Assembly: GCA_013349295.1 (NCBI GenBank)
Contig: DUZW01000003.1
Span: forward strand, 62,001-126,000
From: Deltaproteobacteria bacterium
Lineage (GTDB): Bacteria; Desulfobacterota; Desulfobulbia; Desulfobulbales; Desulfurivibrionaceae
Direction: 5' to 3'
DNA: 64,000 bases
A model generated the notes under the pieces. It was given only the letters and a program-made list of their open reading frames with translations. It was not told the DNA's origin and did no database searches. Made by a program: the position numbers and the translations under genes. The first letter of the stretch is position 1, and each line of letters starts with the position of its first letter. Shown here in pieces: positions 4,002 to 56,041 of this stretch.

Positions 4002-4094
4002 GTTGAATTCCTCGGTATCTTTATGGTATCGTGTCGAAAAAACGGCCTGCCGTCTTGTAACTATCCAGCTGGATTTTGACGAAAACCACGGCAC

Positions 4095-4197
4095 GTAACT
4101 GTTCAGCAGTGGTACCGATGCCAGGGAGAGGCCTGCGAAACGGCTATTGCACTGAGCAGGCCGATGGCAAAGCGCATGTGCTGCGGCTGAAAGTTAC
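4095..4197. repeat. Palindromic intergenic repeat, copy A
   Basis: About 103 bp in the 305-bp gap between divergent plsC and the DUF748 gene. Outer arms start GTAACTGTTCAG and end CTGAAAGTTAC; inner arms are GGCCTGC (4130-4136) and GCAGGCC (4156-4162). The core GAGGCCTGCGAA ... GAGCAGGCCGATG is shared with copy C at 55811-55916 and, more loosely, copy B at 52627-52706. The rest of the gap shows no gene. Confidence 0.8.
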
Positions 4198-4306
4198 ACC
4201 GTTTTTACTTTTGTTTTCCCTCAGGACTGGTATCTTAGCATTCCTCCGTGCTCCTGCCAAGCACTGACCACAAACACCGGATAAATCCTTTCCGGCAGGT
4301 TGAACG

Positions 4307-17016: not shown

Positions 17017-17153
17017 TGCTGTTCCCCTGTTTGCCTTATGAATAATAGTTGCAACTATCCAGCAGAGCACATCTGCGACACTGCCGAACAGTTACATTTC
17101 CTGGTTTTTTTTGATCCAATCCCGGCATTACGCCGAACAGTCAGCAACAATCT

Positions 17154-36437: not shown

Positions 36438-36491
36438 AAAGGGACAACGACTCTCCCGCCTGAATCCAAAATTAAACGTAAACCAGGGGAT

Positions 36492-36529
36492 GCAACTGCT
36501 CAGCAGTGACATGAATACTGGACAGTTAC
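36492..36529. repeat. Short palindrome sharing the outer arms of the intergenic repeat
   Basis: GCAACTGCTCAG at the left and CTGGACAGTTAC at the right are imperfect inverted arms of a 38-bp element between pstB and phoU. The left arm matches the left arm of repeat copy A at 10 of 12 positions, while the repeat core is absent. It may be a collapsed copy. Confidence 0.4.
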
Positions 36530-52476: not shown

Positions 52477-52553
52477 TGGTAGGCGCGGGCGGATTCGAAC
52501 CGCCGACCTCTTGCGTGTCGGGCAAGCGCTCTAACCAACTGAGCTACGCGCCT
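52477..52553 (-). tRNA. tRNA-Val (GAC) with C33
   Basis: 77 nt including encoded CCA. Acceptor AGGCGCG pairs with CGCGCCT; anticodon stem CTTGC/GCAAG encloses loop CCGACAC, giving anticodon GAC. Position 33 is C where almost all elongator tRNAs have U. D-arm (GCTCAGTTGGTTAGAGC) and T-arm (GGTTCGAATCC) are normal, so the gene is otherwise well formed. Confidence 0.9.
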
Positions 52554-52626
52554 AAAAAATAAGAAAGCACATCGCCTCCCGGCGACAGCTCGTTGTTATT
52601 TTCAAGACAAAACTTAACTTTTTTTT

Positions 52627-52706
52627 GTGCCACAGATGCAAGGAAAAGGCCGGCGCAGGATGCTATCGCACGTGTAGCGGCCAATGACAAAGCAGATGTG
52701 GTGCCA
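52627..52706. repeat. Palindromic intergenic repeat, copy B (diverged)
   Basis: About 80 bp between recR and tRNA-Val. It keeps the frame AAAAGGCCGGCG ... GCGGCC then AATGACAAAGCAGATG, matching copy C's GATGACAAAGCAGATG, but the inner arms are altered and the outer arms are not clearly palindromic. Confidence 0.65.
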
Positions 52707-52803
52707 ACGACAAATTACAACAAAACTTCCAAACGGCAACGAAATACCAACAATTCGTTCGGGTGTCAAGGACAAATAGTTGCCAGCGATTGTCGGCACC
52801 AGC

Positions 52804-55710: not shown

Positions 55711-55810
55711 TTTCAGTCCTCAGGTGTCAGGCACCGGCGTTGCTGGGGATATGGCAGAGGGTCGCGAAGGGTCGGACACCCAGAACGCGCCTCCCAGAGA
55801 TATCAAAACC

Positions 55811-55916
55811 ATACCTGCTCATCAGTGCCGCAGATGCGCGAAAGAGGCCTGCGAAGTGTGCTAGTGCACATGAGCAGGCCGATGACAAAGCAGATGCGGT
55901 GCTGATGAGCAGGTAT
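55811..55916. repeat. Palindromic intergenic repeat, copy C (most complete)
   Basis: 106 bp between dnaX and the SRP RNA gene. Outer arms are perfect over 14 bp (55811-55824 with 55903-55916). Inner arms are GGCCTGC and GCAGGCC, enclosing a smaller GTGTGC/GCACAT hairpin. The core GAGGCCTGCGAA...GAGCAGGCCGATG is shared with copy A at 4095-4197. Confidence 0.85.
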
Positions 55917-55928
55917 AAAAAAATGATA

Positions 55929-56022
55929 GCCAGGCACCCCTGCGGCACACAAAGTAACTCACTACCGTTGCTTCCTCCCGGACCTGGCGGGGTTCGCAAG
56001 TCTTTGTTGCGCAGGACCCGGC
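55929..56022 (-). ncRNA. ffs: Signal recognition particle RNA (small SRP/4.5S)
   Basis: About 94 nt. On the minus strand the conserved apical motif CCAGGTCCGGGAGGAAGC, which binds Ffh, is present, and the two ends (GCCGGGTCC and GGTGCCTGGC) pair into the long hairpin typical of 4.5S RNA. It lies between tRNA-Ser and dnaX, the usual proteobacterial place. End coordinates are approximate. Confidence 0.88.
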
Positions 56023-56041
56023 TATCAAACCGGAAAATATC

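Follow-up and report, generated by a model that had tools for sequence, protein, structure and literature searches.

Dispersed intergenic hairpins of Desulfobulbales are mobile insertions, probably non-autonomous relatives of the ISBst12 group of IS66

The palindromic repeats dispersed between genes of a deltaproteobacterial genome of the order Desulfobulbales are mobile insertions, flanked in clear cases by 8-bp target duplications and absent from the corresponding sites of relatives, and they carry an elaborate hairpin. In our judgement they are probably MITEs, DDE transposons without a transposase of their own, that belong to the ISBst12 group within the IS66 family, and their fold appears to be under selection. 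The features on which the analysis is based are located in the window, i.e. the whole stretch of 64,000 nucleotides that was analysed, as follows:

4049..4056, no strand: left target duplication of copy A (GCCGTCTT); the empty site in genome G006 reads CTGCCGTTTTTGC
4057..4197, + strand: copy A, full element, with leader 4057-4094 (GTAACTATCCAGC) and palindrome 4095-4197
4198..4205, no strand: right target duplication of copy A (ACCGTTTT, decayed), from the sequence and the empty-site comparison
about 17051..17145, - strand: copy D, deletion derivative with leader and ends, most of the palindrome gone (model match, 22 bits)
about 36447..36529, + strand: copy E, deletion derivative (nhmmer, E 0.006)
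52480-52553, - strand: tRNA gene, copy B lying just outside it
52614..52718, + strand: copy B, decayed palindrome, leader not recognisable (covariance-model match)
55811..55916, + strand: copy C, palindrome only, with perfect outer arms, adjoining the T-tract that follows the SRP RNA gene on its 3' side
55925..56023, - strand: SRP RNA gene (ffs), neighbour of copy C (Rfam RF00169, 78.2 bits)

Copies A, B and C had been described in a first-pass annotation made from the letters alone, and all three were confirmed. A blastn search with copy C as the only query (55800-55925), independent of any model, matched about 40 places in the 2.9-Mb MAG, with E ≤ 2e-16 except for C's own reverse complement. 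Copies A (4095-4196), B (52614-52717) and C (55811-55915) scored 83.5, 82.0 and 125.2 bits, respectively, with a covariance model; the model was trained on 37 hairpins of the same genome, these three among them, so their matching is partly by construction. Of the boundaries proposed earlier, the end of A at 4197 was retained, its start was moved to 4057 to take in the leader with GTAACTATCCAGC, and that of B was moved to near 52614. The outer arms of C are indeed long and perfect, and they extend over 22 consecutive pairs instead of the 14 bp given before. Copy C folds with -73.7 kcal/mol (z -13.8 against shuffled sequences); the folds of A and B, both of which are decayed, are only mildly better than shuffles (z -2.4 and -1.7).

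A family limited to these three copies, the outcome that the first-pass annotation had named as speaking against its proposal, was not what the searches returned. Iterated nhmmer, with duplicates removed, found at least 53 distinct places in the MAG, shortened copies included, and the covariance model, searched in the genome and its relatives, revealed a far larger family, with matches at E ≤ 1e-4 in 86 of the 116 genomes sampled from the order; of its 49 sampled genera, 42 are represented. Many genomes have at least 34 matches. The complete genome G019 has 147 at a looser cut-off, a figure that may include reverse-strand readings, since palindromes score on both strands with the model and weak counts are approximate. 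Beyond the order, matches were obtained in 13 genomes of the phylum sample; a few of these genomes contain 9-16 copies, and some share the layout of leader plus hairpin. A scan of named genomes for the exact pattern gave matches in MAGs titled Desulfobulbaceae, Desulfobacteraceae and Deltaproteobacteria. A description of the family was not found in the literature on Desulfobulbales/Desulfobulbaceae repeats and IS66 MITEs that we searched, preprints and most subscription journals lying outside its coverage.

The statement that the copies never lie inside genes holds broadly, with the exception of about ten that overlap a neighbour's stop codon. Among the 36 own-genome copies that are faced by a long open reading frame, it is in about ten that the TAA of the terminal GTAA serves as the stop of the neighbouring gene (L003, L010, L011, L023, L032, L033, L040 and others). 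A facing stop codon at a distance of up to about 13 bp is more frequent at the right end than at the left, as far as crude gene calling and uncertain leader starts permit such a comparison.

Alignment of the flanks delimited a mobile unit of about 150 bp, composed of a leader of about 45 nt, starting with GTAACTATCCAGC, and an imperfect palindrome of 106 nt, ending with GCTGGATAGTTAC. The palindrome reads GTAACTGTTCAGCAG ... CTGCTGAACAGTTAC, many copies carry the leader GTAACTATCCAGCTTGATGCCGGAATTGAACAAAAACCACGAAAT upstream of it, and nothing is conserved beyond the final TTAC. The terminal inverted repeats lie where the leader begins on the left and where the palindrome ends on the right (GTAACTATCCAGC / GCTGGATAGTTAC; for example L021 and L132), which sets the length of the mobile unit at about 150 bp. 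From left to right, the unit thus starts with the left terminal repeat GTAACTATCCAGC and the 45-nt leader; a further terminal repeat, in the interior, and a structured core come next, and the right terminal repeat, which is inverted, closes it. The outer arms of the approximately 106-nt hairpin are formed by the internal terminal repeat paired with the right one. Variants of this arrangement were also seen. In L137, L144, L151, L186 and L214, inserts of 20-40 nt, often a small palindrome (e.g. TGTCAATCGTCGGCAGCAGTGCCGAC), are nested in internal hairpin loops and leave the remaining fold intact, and L075, L076, L077, L078 and L082 are deletion derivatives without most of the palindrome, several of which keep target duplications.

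Exact repeats of at least 7 bp abut both ends in 11 of 45 copies, compared with 1.6% of mismatched end pairs. The duplications sit at the element boundary and measure 8 bp in the clear cases; perfect ones were found both in the own genome (CTTACCCC, CTCCTTAT, TGAATCAC) and in other genera (CCGCTCAG, GAAATTTC, GTCCGGGA, TGTTTTTT). In G011 neither site A nor site C is occupied, and G006 likewise has an empty site A, in each case with continuous flanks; site B is without the element in G001, G005, G007 and G015. By contrast, G013 and G005 have an element at site A, where remnants persist in other species of the genus, and site C is filled in 12 other species. The duplications, together with the empty sites in relatives, indicate that the repeat is transposable, and a MITE rather than a REP. 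Of the two kinds of mobile repeat that the first-pass annotation had offered as alternatives, the MITE is therefore borne out by terminal repeats, target duplications and empty sites, whereas a 106-nt palindrome within a 150-bp unit with target duplications gives no support to a REP, since REPs are units of 20-40 bp without such duplications. REPs with their RAYT transposases resemble the present repeat in being dispersed extragenic palindromes, but it is much longer and has target duplications and IS66-type terminal repeats.

The same observations bear on the idea that the element is REP-like or of IS200/IS605 type, with a Y1 transposase or RAYT moving it in single-stranded form. The asymmetry of the fold between strands and the dispersed, intergenic palindromes would fit such an element, which is nonetheless contradicted by the 8-bp duplications, as Y1/RAYT single-strand chemistry makes none, and a hand count of the matches listed for G019 revealed no replication-strand bias (16 plus and 16 minus on one arm of the chromosome, 18 and 21 on the other). 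We consider this origin highly improbable. Integron attC sites were rejected as well: the RYYYAAC / GTTRRRY core sites are absent, and the copies end in GTTAC followed by unconserved sequence.

The assignment to the ISBst12 group is based on the ends. The terminal repeat begins with GTAA, as is typical of ISBst12, and group members such as ISDge4 share with our repeat both the terminal repeat (GTAACTGCTCAGCA versus GTAACTGTTCAGCA in the arm) and the 8-bp duplication, but differ from it in that the repeat has no transposase gene, is 150 bp long and contains an extra internal terminal repeat and a structured core. For ISDge4, ends GTGACTACTCAGCA / GTAACTGCTCAGCA and an 8-bp repeat were reported (PMC12898284), and the ends of our repeat are identical to them at 13 of 14 positions. 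The mechanism of the ISBst12-type transposase is poorly characterised (PMC12898284). An element with matching ends was found in G046, which belongs to another genus and another family of the order: locus L119, picked out among 30 IS66 loci fetched, contains an element of about 1.73 kb with GTAACTATCCAGC at both ends and the 8-bp duplication GAATATTT, and it encodes a 475-aa protein matching NCBIfam NF033517 'IS66 family transposase' (289.7 bits) and Pfam PF03050. The terminal repeat is identical to the ends of this element over 13 of 13 bp. The same genome holds about 33-39 matches to the repeat model, and the leaders of two of its repeats (L269, L275) have 19 bp, GTAACTATCCAGCTTGCGC, in common with the element's left end. 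ISBst12-like elements with related ends (GTAACTACTCACCCC, GTAACTACTCAGCC) and 8-bp duplications are also present in G118 and G122.

Several observations count against the IS66-MITE reading. A co-resident autonomous element with the same ends is usual for a MITE, if not strictly required, and the IS66 transposase (PF03050), present in 39 of the 116 genomes of the order, is absent from the whole of our MAG, a type of assembly that can miss insertion sequences, and from all 17 genomes of the genus. Moreover, none of the IS66 matches listed falls in G027, G029, G033 or G037, which have 29-80 repeat matches each, so the source element is not generally co-resident. Two loci with a leader match that no hairpin follows (L078, L081) were considered as autonomous copies and rejected as truncated ones. 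The core is also more conserved between families than are the terminal repeats, the opposite of what is seen in an ordinary MITE. On balance, a MITE that descends from the ISBst12 group of IS66 is the most fitting classification of the repeat, for which only the co-resident parent is lacking in this genus.

A plausible course of events under this MITE assignment would involve an IS66-type transposase that acts in trans on the two outer ends and thereby moves the repeats, the source transposon having presumably been lost from the genus or present there only transiently. The folded top strand itself might then be selected, the simplest reason being that the hairpin could make insertions tolerable in compact intergenic spaces by serving as a 3'-end, insulating or RNA-processing structure, and some copies, above all those behind ffs, may have been retained for their structure. 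Such selection on the fold is not general, because the copies at sites A and B have been lost or have decayed in several species.

At the ffs site, a hairpin of the family with its right end facing ffs occurs in 13 of the 14 species of the genus examined (G011 being empty). These hairpins fall into at least five sequence types, in which the arms differ yet are complementary and which may have arisen by repeated insertion, conversion or in-situ compensation. Three further genera have a hairpin at ffs (G019, G052, G075); those of G019 and G075 have arms that have lost their likeness to the terminal repeat and still pair, with one mismatch each. Most of the remaining ffs loci of the order sample gave no match. 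Retention at ffs suggests a local use for the structure.

The fold is accompanied by strong covariation. At least one double change was found in 21 of the 27 predicted pairs of the own-genome alignment. In the order-wide alignment (46 copies), 97.2% of cells were paired compared with 77.6% in shuffled controls, double-change cells numbered 207 against 42, and 24 of 27 pairs showed double changes against 14; these exact figures lean towards structure, as the alignment was fitted to the covariance model. Shifting the pairing partner by 1-3 columns abolished the signal. The earlier suggestion of a structured RNA family is partly borne out by this covariation of the fold, but the units are mobile insertions. 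To judge from the sequences, it is possible, if short of likely, that the hairpin is a functional RNA structure, regulatory or acting at 3' ends, which was spread by transposition and whose function in cis would explain its conservation. Compensatory changes throughout the hairpin are consistent with this, as are the complementary arms of the hairpins that G019 and G075 have at the ffs site. In 38-39 of 46 copies a tandem U-G/G-U pair is retained, and G-U cells outnumber A-C cells (80:12 order-wide, 61:22 in the unfitted own-genome alignment), which suggests constraint on one single strand; the conserved CAGAUG/GCAGAUG segments can, by their sequence, form a tandem G-A/A-G motif. On the other hand, the model to which the order-wide alignment was fitted favours G-U, two pair positions supply about half of the own-genome excess, and copies at sites A and B decay or are deleted. 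The repeat also had no Rfam match, in the window at the gathering threshold or in six loci searched at E ≤ 5, which gave sub-threshold matches only.

Complementarity of the arms could also be produced by mutation instead of selection, through template switching at a quasi-palindrome or arm-to-arm conversion. The outermost five pairs, with many double changes and not a single G-U in about 230 cells, are what such correction would leave, but it would also erase the inner wobbles and mismatches (the tandem U-G/G-U, GA/GA), and these persist; we regard it as a doubtful explanation. It seems similarly unlikely that the folded top strand, as RNA or single-stranded DNA, is the unit that is both recognised and selected, with an internal motif that outlasts the transposon ends and with hosts that repeatedly captured the hairpin as a 3'-end structure, especially behind ffs.

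Correia/NEMIS, ERIC (RU-1), RUP and YPAL MITEs (PMC2229807) are likewise short, gene-free intergenic palindromes, mobile, present in many copies and able to fold as RNA. Our repeat has other ends and another sequence, is spread order-wide with a sparse presence in further families of the phylum, and shows strong covariation between copies. MITEs usually die along with their parent transposon and, to our knowledge, are usually not conserved between genera. Ordinary MITEs are unlike the present family, which persists across the order, contains an additional internal terminal repeat, conserves its core better than its ends and changes in a way that preserves the structure. An elaborate hairpin kept over such long evolutionary distances is unusual for a MITE-type parasite. 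One leader-plus-hairpin architecture with the same motifs recurs across the 42 genera, mostly without a matching transposase and with stems changing compensatorily, and makes it practicable to study whether hairpins that move can turn into working RNA structures. Many palindromes that lie unannotated between genes in genomes of the order are explained by the family, and the repeat is a ready substrate for testing ISBst12-type trans-mobilisation.

A separate observation concerns the sites themselves. At site B of G014, the tRNA gene is directly followed by an independent insertion (L248) that points the other way; it too adjoins an A/T tract, a hint that terminator-like T-tracts may be preferred. 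In other species of the genus these intergenic positions have received an inserted repeat of a different, unrelated kind (GGAGCCGTTACGRAATAA ... TTCTGTTACGGCTCTTTATGCCG ...), at site A in G010 (L204) and at site B in G009 and G004 (L246 and L249).
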